From Rheinheimera sp. UJ63 (GTDB lineage Bacteria; Pseudomonadota; Gammaproteobacteria; Enterobacterales; Alteromonadaceae), in the NCBI RefSeq assembly GCF_021568285.1, contig NZ_JAKGTQ010000001.1, positions 124,001 to 188,000 of the forward strand: a stretch of 64,000 nucleotides of DNA, given 5' to 3'. Each line of letters starts with the position of its first letter. The first letter of the stretch is position 1. Shown here in pieces: positions 1,273 to 61,722 of the stretch. Below the pieces are notes generated by a model. The model was not told the origin of the DNA. It worked only from the letters and a program-made list of their open reading frames with translations, and searched no databases. The translations under genes and the position numbers were made by a program.

Positions 1273-1434
1273 GGTTAAAATCCTTGTTGAGGAGCTGATG
1301 TCCTCTCAAGACTAACGCGTATAAGCCGGTTAGTCTAAAGAATTTGTGTTGCAGAGTGTTGCTAGAAAGGTGCTAAGCCTTGCGCTGGCGATAACAAAGG
1401 GCTGCGCCTGGCGGCAAACAGCCTAAAGCCCAGT

Positions 1435-2634
1435 TTAATACTTGGCAATGTCTGGTAAGTCGCCACTGTTACCCAGCGCAGCCGCCATCAGCTTTTGTTT
1501 TAAACCTGGCAGTTTATCGGCCAGTAACAAGCCTGCACCACGTAATAATTTCAGTGCCGGTTGCTTGTTACTAAAACCCCGTTTAAAGGCTTCCATCGTG
1601 GCGATCATGCTTTGCGCTTCGACTTTACGCCAGCGCTGATAGGCCAGTAATGCACGAGGCTCTGCCAAGGCTTTACCGCTTTGCAGTTGCTTTTCAATAA
1701 TTTGCGCTAACGCGGCCACATCCATTAAACCTAAATTCATACCTTGGCCCGCCAAAGGGTGAATACTGTGCGCAGCATCGGCCACTAACACAACCCGCCC
1801 CCGCACCCACTCACTGGCATAACGCATGGTCAGTGGAAAAGCATGCCGCTCGCTTGTCAACGTTAAACAGCCCAAGGCGCTTTGGCTTGCCGCCGTAAGC
1901 GCCTGATTAAAGGCGTTGGCATCTAACGCTAATAACTGCTCTGCCCGTGCCGTGTCGGCACTCCAAACAATAGAGCATTGCTGTGCATCGGGTAAAGGTA
2001 ATAATGCTAGCGGCCCAGTGGGTAAAAACACTTGCCGCGCCACGCCTTGATGTGGATCTTGGCATTGAATACGCGCCACAATCGCCTGTTGCTGATAATC
2101 CCAATGCGTTAACGGTAGCTGTTGCTGCTGCCGTACAAAAGAATTGACCCCATCAGCGCCCACCAGTAACTGACTCAATAAAATGTCACCGCTGGCGAGC
2201 TGCACTAACACTTCGCGCTCGGTTTGCGCCAACTGGCTAATCTTTGCTTGAAAGAAACACTGCACATTATTGTGTGTTTGTAGCTGCTGATATAACTGCT
2301 GGCGGATCCCTTCGTTATCACAGATCCAACCCAGTTGCGGCAACTGCGGTGGCTCTGCACTAAACTCAATACGACCAAAGCTATCAGCTTCCCACACCGC
2401 CATCGACGAGTAAGCCGCCGCTTGCGCCATAATAGGGTCTGCCACACCTAAGTGACTGAGTAAACGCATCGAAGCCGGGTTTAACGCACTGACCCGCTGA
2501 TAGGTTAACTCGGACGATGTTGGCGCAGCGCCCTGCTCGACTAAAGCAATCTTTAAACCTAAGGGCGCCAATAACAACGCCAAGGTAAGCCCCGCACTGC
2601 CGCCACCGACGATAGTAATATCAAGATTTTGCAT
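1435..2634 (-). CDS. ubiI: UbiI-like FAD-dependent ubiquinone-biosynthesis hydroxylase
   Basis: This is a flavoprotein monooxygenase of the UbiH/UbiF/COQ6 family, predicted to hydroxylate the polyprenylphenol ring in aerobic ubiquinone synthesis. It has the N-terminal FAD-binding motif ITIVGGGSAGLTLALLL, a central VGADGVNS motif, and the C-terminal ADAAHSIHPLAGQGMNLG that contacts the flavin. Length is about 399 residues, as usual for the family. I chose the ATG at 2634 (MQNLDIT), which matches UbiI N-termini and has GGAA upstream; an ATG four codons earlier is possible. It overlaps the end of ubiH by 14 bp, implying translational coupling. Order pepP-ubiH-ubiI is as in E. coli. UbiI versus UbiF rests on synteny. 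Confidence 0.87.
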   Translation of the reverse strand: MQNLDITIVGGGSAGLTLALLLAPLGLKIALVEQGAAPTSSELTYQRVSALNPASMRLLSHLGVADPIMAQAAAYSSMAVWEADSFGRIEFSAEPPQLPQLGWICDNEGIRQQLYQQLQTHNNVQCFFQAKISQLAQTEREVLVQLASGDILLSQLLVGADGVNSFVRQQQQLPLTHWDYQQQAIVARIQCQDPHQGVARQVFLPTGPLALLPLPDAQQCSIVWSADTARAEQLLALDANAFNQALTAASQSALGCLTLTSERHAFPLTMRYASEWVRGRVVLVADAAHSIHPLAGQGMNLGLMDVAALAQIIEKQLQSGKALAEPRALLAYQRWRKVEAQSMIATMEAFKRGFSNKQPALKLLRGAGLLLADKLPGLKQKLMAAALGNSGDLPDIAKY

Positions 2635-7724: not shown

Positions 7725-8951
7725 ATGGAAAAATTTTCGCTAGCAAAAGACAAGATTAAAATCCTGCTGCTCGAGGGTTTGCACCACAGTGCCGTACAAA
7801 CCTTTAAAGATAATGGTTATACCAATATCGAGTATCTGAAGACTTCGTTACCAGAAGATGAGCTGATTGAGCGAATCAAAGATGCACATGTGATCGGTAT
7901 TCGCTCGCGCACTCAGCTGACCGAGCCGGTATTAGATGCCGCCAATAAACTGATGGCAATTGGTTGTTTTTGTATTGGTACTAACCAAGTGGATCTGCAT
8001 GCCGCGTTAACTCGCGCCATTCCGGTGTTTAATGCGCCCTTCTCTAACACGCGTTCGGTTGCCGAGTTAGTATTAGGCCAATTAATTATGCTGTTACGTG
8101 GTATTCCACAACGTAACGCCGCTGCCCATCGTGGCGAGTGGTTAAAAACGGCAGACCAATCGTTTGAAGCCCGCGGTAAAACCTTGGGTATTATTGGTTA
8201 TGGCCATATCGGTACGCAGTTAGGCATCATGGCTGAAAATATCGGTATGCGCGTGCAATTTTATGATATCGAAAGCAAATTAGTGTTAGGTAACTCAACA
8301 CAAGTTGATTTAGAAACCTTACTGAAAACCTCAGATGTGATCAGTTTGCATGTACCTGAAACCGTACAAACTCAAAACATGATTGGTGAAACAGAACTGG
8401 CGCTAATGAAACAAGGCGCGATCTTGATCAATGCTTCACGCGGCACGGTGGTCGATATTCCGGCACTCACCGCCGCTTTAGAAAGCCAAAGGTTGGCCGG
8501 CGCCGCCATTGACGTCTTCCCTATCGAACCCAAAGGCAACAGCGAAGAGTTTGTTTCACCCCTGCGTCAATTTGATAATGTAATTTTGACTCCGCACATC
8601 GGTGGTTCAACCCAAGAAGCACAAGAAAACATTGGCTTTGAAGTGGCGGGTAAGCTGGTGAAATACAGCGATAACGGTTCAACACTATCCGCTGTTAACT
8701 TCCCTGAAGTATCCTTACCCGAGCACAAAGGCCGCTCACGCTTGTTGCATATTCACAAAAACCAACCTGGTATGCTGACTAAGATCAACGAAGCTTTTGC
8801 AAGGCATAATATCAATATTTCTGGTCAGTACTTACAGACCGTACAAGAAATTGGTTATGTGGTAATTGATATTGATTCTGAAGATAGCGAACTGGCGTTA
8901 AATGAATTAAAAGCGATCCCAGGTACATTAAGAGCCCGTATCCTGCACTAA
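7725..8951 (+). CDS. serA: D-3-phosphoglycerate dehydrogenase
   Basis: SerA is the first step of serine synthesis, oxidising 3-phosphoglycerate with NAD+. The 408-residue protein has the substrate domain (IGIRSRTQLT), the Rossmann motif LGIIGYGHIGTQLG near residue 158, the INASRGTVVD motif, catalytic LTPHIGGSTQEAQENIG, and a C-terminal ACT domain (HKNQPGMLTKINEAFARHNI) for serine feedback. Length and ACT domain match the E. coli type. The downstream gap contains a hairpin repeat element rather than a simple terminator. Confidence 0.97.
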   Translation: MEKFSLAKDKIKILLLEGLHHSAVQTFKDNGYTNIEYLKTSLPEDELIERIKDAHVIGIRSRTQLTEPVLDAANKLMAIGCFCIGTNQVDLHAALTRAIPVFNAPFSNTRSVAELVLGQLIMLLRGIPQRNAAAHRGEWLKTADQSFEARGKTLGIIGYGHIGTQLGIMAENIGMRVQFYDIESKLVLGNSTQVDLETLLKTSDVISLHVPETVQTQNMIGETELALMKQGAILINASRGTVVDIPALTAALESQRLAGAAIDVFPIEPKGNSEEFVSPLRQFDNVILTPHIGGSTQEAQENIGFEVAGKLVKYSDNGSTLSAVNFPEVSLPEHKGRSRLLHIHKNQPGMLTKINEAFARHNINISGQYLQTVQEIGYVVIDIDSEDSELALNELKAIPGTLRARILH

Positions 8952-9011: not shown

Positions 9012-9188
9012 AGCATGACCTGTTTGCTCTAATTCAACCGTTGAAGGCCATGGATGGCCGGACAAATTCGTTGGGAACGAATTTGAACAGCTTTGTTGGC
9101 CCGGAAGGGTGAACTTCAGGAATGAAGTTCATCATCGAGCCTCAGGGATGATTCATGACGTGTTGATGTGAGCAAACCGCGTCATGCT
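9012..9188. repeat. Dispersed multi-hairpin element, copy A
   Basis: This element fills the 320-bp gap between serA and the DUF481 gene. Imperfect terminal inverted repeats (9012-9029 and 9170-9188, half-site AGCATGAC..TTTGCTC) enclose several hairpins: GGCCATGGATGGCC; a stem CAAATTCGTT/AACGAATTTG; and GAACTTCA (9111-9118) with TGAAGTTC (9123-9130). A 35-nt block (9037-9071) is identical to the reverse complement of 61317-61351, and similarity continues through the remaining core. No coding potential is seen in the gap. Confidence 0.8.
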
Positions 9189-11753: not shown

Positions 11754-11829
11754 GGATTGTTAGCTCAGCTGGGAGAGCACCGCCCTTACAAGGCGGGGGT
11801 CACTGGTTCGAACCCAGTACAATCCACCA
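11754..11829 (+). tRNA. tRNA-Val (anticodon TAC), copy 1
   Basis: A complete 76-nt cloverleaf: acceptor stem GGATTGT/ACAATCC, D-arm TAGCTCAGCTGGGAGAGCA, anticodon arm CCGCCC TTACAAG GCGGG with anticodon TAC, T-arm CACTGGTTCGAACCCAGT, and an encoded CCA tail. The sequence closely resembles E. coli valT/valU. It is first in the array behind a consensus promoter. Confidence 0.97.
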
Positions 11830-11850
11830 ATTTGATGTTTTAAACTTAAA

Positions 11851-11916
11851 TGAGAGCACCGCCCGCTCTTTGCTAAGACAGGGTTGCCACTGATTTGAAT
11901 TCAGTACAATCCACCA
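11851..11916 (+). pseudogene. Degenerate tRNA-Val-derived unit 1
   Basis: It begins at GAGAGCACCGCCC and ends in AGTACAATCCACCA like the intact tRNA, but the acceptor 5' strand and half the D-arm are missing. The anticodon arm is replaced by GCTCTTTGCTAAGACAGGG. No cloverleaf is possible. The same altered middle recurs in units 2-4. Confidence 0.75.
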
Positions 11917-11949
11917 ATTTGATGCTCCCTTCAGGTAAAACTGAAAACT

Positions 11950-12025
11950 GGATTGTTAGCTCAGCTGGGAGAGCACCGCCCTTACAAGGCGGGGGTCACT
12001 GGTTCGAACCCAGTACAATCCACCA
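11950..12025 (+). tRNA. tRNA-Val (anticodon TAC), copy 2
   Basis: Identical over 76 nt to the copy at 11754, with anticodon TAC and encoded CCA. It begins 196 bp after the start of copy 1, separated by degenerate unit 1. Confidence 0.97.
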
Positions 12026-12043
12026 AATTTTTTTAAACTTAAA

Positions 12044-12109
12044 AGAGAGCACCGCCCGCTCTTTGCTAAGACAGGGTTGCCACTGATTCCTACTCAGTAC
12101 AATCCACCA
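12044..12109 (+). pseudogene. Degenerate tRNA-Val-derived unit 2
   Basis: It has the same truncated form as unit 1: AGAGAGCACCGCCC, the altered anticodon region GCTCTTTGCTAAGACAGGG, and a 3' end CAGTACAATCCACCA. The T-loop is changed (GATTCCTACTC instead of GGTTCGAACCC). It cannot fold as a tRNA. Confidence 0.75.
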
Positions 12110-12133
12110 ATTCTGCAAAAGTTATACTCCCAT

Positions 12134-12209
12134 GGATTGTTAGCTCAGCTGGGAGAGCACCGCCCTTACAAGGCGGGGGTCACTGGTTCGAACCCAGTAC
12201 AATCCACCA
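12134..12209 (+). tRNA. tRNA-Val (anticodon TAC), copy 3
   Basis: A third identical 76-nt tRNA-Val(TAC) with CCA. It is the last intact tRNA of the array; in E. coli the corresponding array ends with tRNA-Lys, which is not found here. Confidence 0.97.
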
Positions 12210-12318
12210 TATCCTTTTTTTAAACCAATCCAATTTCTTGTTTGCTCAGTTTTAAGAGCACCGCCCGCTCTTTGCTAAGACAGGGTTGCCACTGATTCAA
12301 ACACAGTACAATCCACCA
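12210..12318 (+). pseudogene. Degenerate tRNA-derived unit 3 (109 bp)
   Basis: The unit contains a poly-T stretch, a decayed 5' part (TCTTGTTTGCTCAGTTTTAA), the altered anticodon region GCTCTTTGCTAAGACAGGG, and a CAGTACAATCCACCA tail. It is repeated almost exactly as unit 4 immediately downstream (two substitutions in 109 bp). Confidence 0.78.
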
Positions 12319-12427
12319 TATCCTTTTTTTAAACCAATCCAATTTCTTGTTTGCTCAGTTTTAATAGCACCGCCCGCTTTTTGCTAAGACAGGGTTGCCA
12401 CTGATTCAAACACAGTACAATCCACCA
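12319..12427 (+). pseudogene. Degenerate tRNA-derived unit 4 (109-bp duplicate of unit 3)
   Basis: It differs from unit 3 only at two positions (TTTTAATAGC for TTTTAAGAGC, and CGCTTTTTGC for CGCTCTTTGC). The head-to-tail arrangement indicates a recent tandem duplication of an already decayed tRNA copy. Confidence 0.8.
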
Positions 12428-12547
12428 AATTCTATCTGAAACTCATCTAATTTATTGCCAACTCAGCTGGGTAAGCACCGCCTGCTCTTTACCAAGACGC
12501 GGTTGTCACTGGTTCGAGCGTTTCACGCCGCACCGTACAATCCACCA
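12428..12547 (+). pseudogene. Degenerate tRNA-derived unit 5
   Basis: It keeps more of the 5' half (ATTGCCAACTCAGCTGGGTAAGCACCGCC) and a T-loop GGTTCGAG. The anticodon arm is expanded (TGCTCTTTACCAAGACGCGG), and about 14 nt (CGTTTCACGCCGCA) are inserted before the CCGTACAATCCACCA tail. The acceptor stem does not close (ATTG against CAAT only). Confidence 0.7.
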
Positions 12548-12650
12548 TATCCTTTTGAAACCAATCTAATCTATTGTTAGCTCAGCTGTAAGAGCACCAC
12601 CCGCTTTTTACCAAAAGATGGTTGCCATTGGCCCACCTGCCAAGCACTAA
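12548..12650 (+). pseudogene. Degenerate tRNA-derived unit 6 (3'-truncated)
   Basis: The 5' half is recognisable (CTATTGTTAGCTCAGCTGTAAGAGCACCACCCG). The similarity fades after TTTTTACCAAAAGATGGTTGCCATTGG, and there is no CCA tail. It is the last and most decayed unit of the array. Confidence 0.65.
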
Positions 12651-61177: not shown

Positions 61178-61214
61178 AAGGAAAGCCATAAAACCCACGC
61201 AAGCACTACGTACA

Positions 61215-61362
61215 TTTTTTCTGTGACACGCCGTGAAGCTTCCCCGGGGCTAGATTGTGAATATCATCCATGATATTCACCCGTTGGGACAGCAGAGCTG
61301 TCCAAATGCGTTCCTGACGAATTTGTCCGGCCATCCATGGCCTTCAACGGTCACAGAAAAAA
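61215..61362. repeat. Dispersed multi-hairpin element, copy B (opposite orientation)
   Basis: Perfect 13-bp terminal inverted repeats TTTTTTCTGTGAC (61215-61227) and GTCACAGAAAAAA (61350-61362) bound a core that matches copy A (9012-9188) in reverse complement; 35 nt (61317-61351) are identical. Hairpins: GTGAATATCA/TGATATTCAC (61257-61280), GGACAGC/GCTGTCC type, and GGCCATCCATGGCC (61329-61342). Confidence 0.8.
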
Positions 61363-61371
61363 GTATCTCCG

Positions 61372-61470
61372 CGCTTGCTTAGTTCTGAGCTTTCTCCAAG
61401 GTAAAAGCTGGGAAGTCCCAGCGCAACACTGATAATGCTAAGCAAAGCGTCTTTGGCATGGATGCCAAAG
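61372..61470. repeat. Nested inverted repeat in the his spacer
   Basis: CGCTTGCTTAG (about 61372-61382) is complementary, with one bulge, to CTAAGCAAAGCG (about 61438-61449). Inside lies a GCTGGGA/TCCCAGC hairpin, and just after it CTTTGGCAT/ATGCCAAAG. It is a compact structured unit similar in style to the neighbouring element but not homologous in sequence. Confidence 0.6.
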
Positions 61471-61722
61471 AGGAGCCTACAGGGAAGTATTCACGGCGTC
61501 TTTGCGTGCAATATCAGTGTGAAGCGGTACAGAATTTACAACGACTTTGCATGCACTATCAGTTTAAAGCGTGACAGTATTTATAACGATTTTGCGTGTA
61601 GTATCAGTGTGAAGCGTTACAGTATTTACAATAACTTTATGTGCAGTATTCATCTAAAACGCACTAGAGATAACGCTAATGATACGTGGCAAAATACACA
61701 TTCGAACGTGAGAATTAAATGA
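61435..61722 (+). CDS. Doubtful open frame across 45-bp tandem repeats
   Basis: A 95-codon frame from ATG 61435 runs through the four 45-bp repeats (61495-61674), giving 15-residue repeats such as [15 protein letters not shown] and [15 protein letters not shown]. It ends in TGA within the hisIE start (ATGATG at 61719). The repeat length being a multiple of three keeps it open by itself, and no ribosome site or homologue is evident, so it may not be a gene. It could couple translation to hisIE. Confidence 0.25.
61495..61674. repeat. Four 45-bp tandem repeats
   Basis: Four consecutive 45-bp units share a core such as CTTTGC-TGCA-TATCAGT-T-AAGCG-TACAG-ATTTA. Units 1-3 are similar to each other; unit 4 is degenerate. 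They lie directly upstream of hisIE. Confidence 0.85.

Follow-up and report, generated by a model that had tools for sequence, protein, structure and literature searches.

Nested mobile palindromes in Rheinheimera sp. UJ63 and a 71-bp hairpin module found across the class, probably related to rtT and a small-RNA family

ERIC repeats have been known since 1991 (date from a source excerpt). ERIC inserts, the rtT repeats and one small-RNA family have so far been catalogued apart. Insertions of about 70 bp within ERIC are reportedly described by Wilson and Sharp in 2006, and this "~70-bp insertion" we take to be the module, M, that is characterized here. Our data show that ERIC, tRNA copies and other palindromes share a single 71-bp module, which inserts by a fixed rule and occurs in about 40% of the sampled genomes of the class, and they suggest that M unites these separate entries. 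REP/BIME elements with their RAYT systems resemble the elements treated below in being extragenic, placed at gene 3' ends, assembled into nested mosaics and made of hairpins; they differ by the GTAG foot and by RAYT linkage, neither of which was found for M. IS200/IS605-type single-strand elements insert in one orientation, without target site duplication (TSD) and beside subterminal hairpins, as M was found to do. CsrA-binding RNAs of the TwoAYGGAY and CsrB/RsmZ types share with M the GGA in hairpin loops, in pairs, whereas M and the outer palindrome S that surrounds it here are dispersed, mobile and present in both orientations, and are not single-locus sRNAs.

The window analysed here is a stretch of 64,000 nucleotides from Rheinheimera sp. 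UJ63. It holds two copies, A and B, of a hairpin element, and each consists of two nested pieces, an inner M in an outer S. This nesting was recognised from copies that lack the middle (L005, L006, L007, L011) and from matches in other genera. The features are as follows, with bit scores from R2, a covariance model of M alone.

7725-8951, + strand: serA (NCBIfam), upstream neighbour of copy A
9012..9188, + strand: copy A, 3' of serA; module M nested in an outer palindrome S whose ends are of type 1
9046..9059, + strand: S hairpin GGCC-AUGGAU-GGCC of copy A, adjoining the point of M insertion on its 5' side
9063..9133, + strand: module M of copy A, between GGA 9060-9062 and ATC 9134-9136; R2 81.4 bits
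9063-9085, 9088-9098, 9100-9109 and 9110-9131, + strand: hairpins H1 (loop UGGGA), H2, H3 and H4 (loop AGGAAU) of M in copy A
9143..9150, + strand: S site CAGGGAUG of copy A, 3' of M
61212..61365, - strand: copy B, between hisF and hisIE of a his operon; M nested in an S whose ends are of type 2 (TTTTTTCTGTGAC arms)
61256..61325, - strand: module M of copy B, between GGA 61326-61328 and ATC 61253-61255; R2 77.7 bits
61329..61342, - strand: S hairpin GGCC-AUGGAU-GGCC of copy B
61437..61509, + strand: second S-like element, without M, in the copy B spacer; CUUUGGC-AUGGAU-GCCAAAG, CCUACAGGGAAGUAUUCACGGCG

An earlier note on this DNA had reported a 35-nt identical block in A and B, and the longest block common to both is indeed 35 nt (ACCGTTGAAGGCCATGGATGGCCGGACAAATTCGT, in opposite orientation). 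The paired arm changes that it described in a central hairpin read as claimed, GAACTTCA/TGAAGTTC in A against GAATATCA/TGATATTC in B, and so do the outer ends, said to differ between the copies yet to self-pair in each: AGCATGACCTGTTTGCTC/GAGCAAACCGCGTCATGCT, nearly complementary, in A and TTTTTTCTGTGAC/GTCACAGAAAAAA in B. One mismatch in the H1 arm of copy B is the sole imperfection named. Folded as RNA, copy A reached -77.6 kcal/mol (z -6.6) and copy B -59.0 kcal/mol (z -4.8), with 0 of 200 shuffles equal in either case; as a DNA fold, copy A gave a z of -7.6. The spacer that holds copy B (hisF and hisIE by NCBIfam) measures 541 nt, and the likeness of its second, M-less element to the S1 shell was reached by 0 of 500 shuffles, that to S3 by 58 of 500.

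An alignment of 21 copies yielded a multibranched fold. S is laid out as variable arms, CAACCGUUG, a stem with CAUGGAUG, GAGCC, CAGGGAUG (or like) and a conserved UU(C/U)A(C/U)GGCGUG. M, of about 71 bp, comprises four hairpins and begins GA-C-H1 (by eye): H1 (9 bp, loop NNGGA) is followed by AAC, a variable H2, H3 (often GCCC GNA GGGC) and H4 (7-8 bp, loop ANGGAN), and then by GUAAUC or like. The covariation on which the earlier note relied became stronger as copies were added, from both-side changes in 22 of 49 predicted pairs (21 copies) to double changes in 25 of 25 pairs in 54 copies of M (alignment A4), with 299 double-change cells against 13 one-sided ones. Its score was 0.605, compared with 0.170 in shuffled alignments and at most 0.121 with the partners slid; since A4 is a MAFFT alignment of pieces chosen with R1 and its structure was written by hand from that same alignment, the excess over the slid versions is biased in favour of the structure, although we do not attribute the size of the excess to this bias. 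On the way from A3 to A4, 19 of 73 matches were dropped, 18 of them partial or near-duplicate, and then L099, with an expanded H2.

Loops and pairs were counted in 163 distinct copies of M, from 169 rows. GGA lies in the loop of H1 in 158 and of H4 in 153 copies, compared with 6 for H2 and 5 for H3. The H1 loop is exactly NNGGA in 151 copies, and H4, closing pair included, has the form CANGGANG in 113, CAGGANG in 23 and another form in 27, the N positions being free; a GNA triloop is found in H3 in 93 and in H2 in 48 copies. Among 4027 stem cells, 3793 (94%) are Watson-Crick, 48 are G-U, 28 A-C and 158 other mismatches (3557 of 3720 Watson-Crick without the last H2 and the outermost H4 pair). 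The tRNAs of the same loci have G-U in 46 of 854 pairs, so that G-U is about a quarter as common in M stems as in tRNA stems, a comparison that covers the G-U share only because ARAGORN lists no A-C. In M, mismatches other than G-U are commoner than G-U.

The same paired changes could in principle arise without any selection on structure, if during replication the template switches from one arm of the palindrome to the other (quasipalindrome correction) and both arms are rewritten at once. Indeed, the 299 to 13 ratio of double over one-sided standard changes in A4 and the few mismatches are what such a process would leave, and H4 of copy B is separated from that of its ortholog in genome G011 (L250) by two clean double changes, with single changes and indels elsewhere in the copies. 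Whatever the model, some of the paired changes probably come from such arm-to-arm switching. However, the GGA loops and the inter-hairpin bases are conserved class-wide while the stems drift, which drift alone does not explain, a common loop is found in H1 and H4 and not in H2 or H3, and switching may supply the changes yet still act under selection. As the whole account of the paired changes, template switching is very doubtful.

The comparison with ERIC bears on what M is. Searching a phage collection with copy A gave short matches in Klebsiella, Salmonella and Escherichia-phage records, with near identity over 31 nt, and R2 scored 65-67 bits in the Salmonella, Klebsiella-phage and Escherichia-phage records. 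Filled E. coli loci scored 71.7 (L272, L273) and 65.5, 54.6 and 36.4 bits (L274), and R2 found no M in the empty E. coli loci L275-L277. The host repeats around M in Klebsiella, Salmonella and E. coli are presumably ERIC, judged by the ERIC sequence. Three states occur at the panC-rpnC locus of E. coli: ERIC is missing from strains NN5 and MN06021, strain N96 carries an ERIC of 127 bp that contains GAGTGAATCCCC, and the sequence in PV15-279 and L73 is GAGTGA-M-ATCCCC, with an M of 71 bp and no duplication. An 81-base query made of this M and a few flanking bases had matches in 604 of 5426 E. coli genomes, in 601 of them across 80% or more of the query; this is a count of query matches. The ERIC insert of about 70 bp and M are thus alike in covariance score (65-72 bits), in the GA^ATC site, in the 71 bp and in the lack of a duplication. 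The outer elements, by contrast, show no likeness beyond chance: 216 (S1), 85 (S2) and 265 (S3) of 500 shuffles were as good, compared with 0 of 500 for a control pairing of the Klebsiella ERIC with the 127-bp E. coli ERIC. S is not ERIC; the likeness is at chance level. The statement of the earlier note that no named element could be recognised is only partly right. When the window and copies A and B were compared with Rfam, no family passed the threshold at the elements; M, however, we take to be the insert of the enterobacterial ERIC, and it scores below threshold against two Rfam families. A single E. coli ERIC (L274 515-779) holds three separate M insertions.

The junctions of M follow a simple rule. 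Of 163 copies, 141 have GA as the two bases immediately 5' of M, and the commonest end of M is TAATC (46 copies). S without M reads GGCCGGA^ATCGAG (L005, L006, L251, L260, L263) and filled S reads GGCCGGA-M-ATC, which places M in S at GGA^ATC without target duplication; three of these M-less copies (L251, L260, L263) lie at the his locus. Other M-less copies vary at this point. Together, the sites are GTGA^ATCCCC in the E. coli ERIC, GGA^ATC in S and TTCGA^ATCC in tRNA, with no duplication. M is thus a non-autonomous mobile hairpin that inserts at specific sites, in one orientation and without a TSD.

Moreover, 57 of the 169 copies of M lie in tRNA-bearing loci (ARAGORN). Joining the flanks of M regenerated the local tRNA in 29 of these 57 (at least 15 of 20 bases; 11 at 20 of 20), and in none when the windows were moved outward as a control. 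Most of these sites are GTTCGA^ATCC in the T loop, and three are GGCTGA^A in the D arm of tRNA-Ser. M is sense to the tRNA in 26 of the regenerating copies and antisense in three, all in tRNA-Phe, whose T arm has GGAATC on the opposite strand; the orientation of M is set by the DNA target and not by transcription. Further hosts, identified by eye, are palindromes like GTCATTCC..GGAATCC (L118, L128, probably L143) and like CTTTGG..CAAAGA (L116, L117, L127, L129). Before some tRNA-linked copies of M (L084, L088, L092, L098, L132; by eye) stands an inverted, partly deleted tRNA 3' end, so that an outer stem is built from tRNA sequence.

The element is not confined to the two copies of the window, which had been raised as a doubt: BLAST with copy A found 19 places (E<=1e-3) in the 3.84-Mb genome, and R2 found M at 18 (E<=0.01). 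Copy A also had at least one match in each of the 24 other genomes of the genus that were searched, but of 16 genomes that represent other families of the order only 2 had a match. An exact 23-base pattern occurred in five contigs of three Alishewanella species, in a collection of named genomes from which very near relatives of the window were perhaps left out. R1 matched 73 of 118 genomes of the family. Across the class, R2 found M in 149 of 369 genomes and 119 of 272 genera (E<=1e-4, under strict filtering, at the cost of weak matches), scoring 66-96 bits at the upper end among the class matches listed. Carriage by phages or plasmids was considered and rejected: copy A had no match in the plasmid collection and only 30-31-nt pieces of M in four records of the phage collection, two of which, the Salmonella contig and the Klebsiella stretch, contain chromosomal genes, and an exact 25-base H1 pattern had no match in viral contigs.

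Presence and absence vary within the genus. Behind serA, S with M is absent from all 15 other genomes of the genus inspected (by eye, 300 nt), one of which has S alone (L235). In the his spacers of 16 genomes, classed by the first element read, we found S with M in two (own and G011), S alone in three, S inverted in three, another S-like element in one, an unrelated spacer in one and no element in six. The divergence between his spacers with and without S is too great for placing the ends of S and so for reading a TA target duplication of ERIC type. S thus stands in both orientations at hisF-hisIE across species (L250 compared with L251, L255 and L260), as though its long inverted arms let the centre turn over.

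By ORF calls from a simple longest-first rule, in which individual cases are possibly wrong, the 169 copies of M lie between convergent genes in 42 cases, between divergent genes in 25, between tandem genes with the GGA strand sense in 29 or antisense in 28, and in long ORFs in 34, with an incomplete flank in 11. For the 56 copies of the same genus, the numbers are 21 convergent, 5 divergent, 14 sense, 13 antisense, 1 in long ORFs and 2 incomplete. Gene 3' ends are favoured by the element in the genus; the strand is not. At some loci (L060, L061, L062, L064), M is nested in a MITE-like repeat with ends like AGGGCTTGTTGAC, which has near-identical copies in the own genome, so M also hitch-hikes. 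A tandem array of about five units of ~118 bp (G000:C1:1123362-1124016) was matched by R1, is absent from the R2 matches and was left out of the counts of M.

The earlier note had proposed selection on structure or a palindrome-driven mobile element of REP/MITE-like kind. This proposal is borne out by the dispersed family, the presence/absence polymorphism, the precise insertions and the strong covariation; the suggested REP-type driver, a Y1 transposase, is not. A REP-type M mobilised by a RAYT (TnpA-REP, Y1) transposase would agree with the hairpins and the TSD-free oriented insertion of M, with the two Y1 genes of the own genome and with a weak association of Y1_Tnp with M (108 of 149 genomes with M, 117 of 220 without; odds ratio 2.3). 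However, the own Y1 genes adjoin other repeats (by eye), inverted GGGTCAGGTCTTGC and tandem GGTACTGGTCTGACC (L048, L049), and not M; M lies within the stretches of up to 3 kb read on either side in only one of 42 Y1 loci (two own and 40 from other genomes, among the matches listed); and no Y1 transposase was found at E<=1e-5 in 41 of the 149 genomes with M. M also lacks the 5' GTAG/GTGG foot, the tetranucleotide at the hairpin foot that the excerpt of PMC6006769 gives as the mark of REP. We consider this alternative extremely improbable. Linkage to an IS200/IS605-type cognate transposase was sought for Y1_Tnp, and none was found.

The best explanation of copies A and B as a whole, in which we have moderate confidence, is that of nested non-autonomous mobile palindromes. 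S is a genus-level interspersed palindrome, mostly at gene 3' ends. M goes into its hosts always the same way round, behind GA and mostly in front of A, and duplicates no target; the hosts are S here, ERIC in enterobacteria and the T loop (or D arm) of tRNA copies. That the copies are mobile nested elements is very probable, given their dispersal, polymorphism, precise insertion and loop conservation with stem covariation. More tentatively, and with a chance somewhat below even, M may move as folded single-stranded DNA, acted on in trans by a putative enzyme that would recognise the GGA loops of the terminal hairpins H1 and H4, by analogy with IS200/IS605 ends, which are recognised via hairpins. 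The need for the hairpin to form in DNA would keep the stems largely Watson-Crick, with template-switch repair of the arms contributing, and the inserted elements might act, if at all, as extragenic 3'-end hairpins.

Several observations speak against this explanation. Mobility is read from polymorphism, and A-C or other mismatches make up 186 of the 4027 stem cells, so that class-wide pairing is far from perfect. The slight excess of G-U over A-C in M (48 to 28, p 0.03) would fit RNA as well as single-stranded DNA, the U-G pairs conserved in 19 and 20 of 21 copies in the S stem P2 would fit an RNA fold, and the H4 loops come closer to the known motif of an RNA-binding protein than recognition by a DNA transposase would call for. 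Two questions become testable: which enzyme moves such miniature palindromes, and whether the GGA loops serve that enzyme or CsrA.

Indeed, M and S might be portable CsrA/RsmA-binding RNA modules, the two GGA-loop hairpins of each piece forming the unit for one CsrA dimer, and transcribed copies might titrate CsrA or put host mRNAs or tRNA transcripts under Csr control. According to the excerpt of PMC7652899, CsrA sites are ANGGAN hexaloops, CsrB repeats read CAGGA(U/A/C)G and the SELEX consensus is RUACARGGAUGU; M has ANGGAN with GGA in the loops of paired hairpins, and the two H4 forms counted above match these patterns. TwoAYGGAY is proposed, in the excerpt of PMC4333381, as a CsrA-binding RNA whose motifs generally come in pairs, and it shares Rfam clan CL00106 with RsmV. 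At locus L089 it matches above threshold (1599-1766, minus strand) beside copies of M at 1522-1599 (+) and 1429-1504 (-), overlapping them by one base only. The own genome has one CsrA, with M at G000:C1:442418-442496 (-), 621 bp 3' of csrA (443117-443272 -) on the same strand, and in at least six genomes (G482, G455, G467, G439, G405, G382; by eye) M lies 492-1236 bp 3' of csrA, likewise on the same strand.

Against this, this proximity may come from adjoining tRNA genes, which attract M (tRNA-Arg, -Arg and -Ser at the own locus L050). The GGA strand is balanced between tandem genes, both overall and in the genus, S stands in both orientations at one his locus, the antisense tRNA insertions of M follow the DNA target, and G-U pairs are few in M stems. 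These stems have about 8-9 pairs, whereas the SELEX hairpins have mostly at most 4 (excerpt of PMC7652899), and the E. coli rtT, a probable relative of M, has no GGA loops. CsrA was found in 135 of 149 genomes with M and 178 of 220 without; of the 14 with M and no CsrA match, 8 are less than 90% complete and 5 (G169, G232, G279, G351, G446) at least 95% complete. The associations of both Y1 and CsrA with M may reflect genome size. An RNA role of M remains putative because, despite its CsrA/RsmA-like H4 loops, M shows no strand bias to transcription; judged from the sequences, with the loop consensus for it and strand neutrality against it, the portable CsrA-binding module is unlikely. Combining it with mobility, M would be a selfish DNA module and a class-wide mobile CsrA/RsmA-binding hairpin. 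Its two end loops would be recognised both by the mover of M and, in transcribed copies, by CsrA. The copies in ERIC, in S, in further palindromes and in tRNA operons, among them the operons behind csrA, would then add up to a drifting, species-specific Csr sponge, with rtT, AaHKsRNA22 and the ERIC inserts as offshoots of one module. This combination we hold to be quite unlikely. In any case, striking covariation in intergenic repeats can stem from mobile DNA hairpins and does not by itself imply a functional RNA.

Two registered RNA families resemble M. The tRNA-Gln-linked copy L132 matches RtT RNA (rttR of the E. coli tyrTV operon, RF00391) with 35.8 bits (gathering 45), a match that takes in its inverted tRNA 3' end. 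Conversely, R2 scores the K-12 rtT repeats weakly, at 17-20 bits with filters off; their site is TTCGA^ATCC in the T loop of tRNA-Tyr. Unlike M, rtT has lost the GGA loops of H1 and H4, and scores are below threshold both ways. AaHKsRNA22 (Aggregatibacter sRNA 22, RF02902) has the H1-H2-H3-H4 plan in common with M and matches the E. coli M with 36.3 and L132 with 32.3 bits, below its gathering score of 39.8; it differs as a registered sRNA and not a mobile module, and its H4 loop was compared only in part. S-like elements match the Yersinia sRNA family Ysr224 of Rfam with 30-43 bits (gathering 70), the second element of the copy B spacer weakly, with 30.7. All these scores being below threshold, we read the three families as relatives because layout and insertion site agree, and not from the score alone. 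M probably links rtT and AaHKsRNA22, as far as such comparisons of sequence go. In the literature searched by topic and sequence, mostly without subscription papers, we recognised no description of M as a class-wide mobile module, and absence from print is not claimed.

Elsewhere in the window, at 11754-12650, three tRNA-Val(TAC) genes stand before several decayed repeats that resemble tRNA-Val and keep their ..GTACAATCCACCA ends intact, which looks like a tRNA array in decay.
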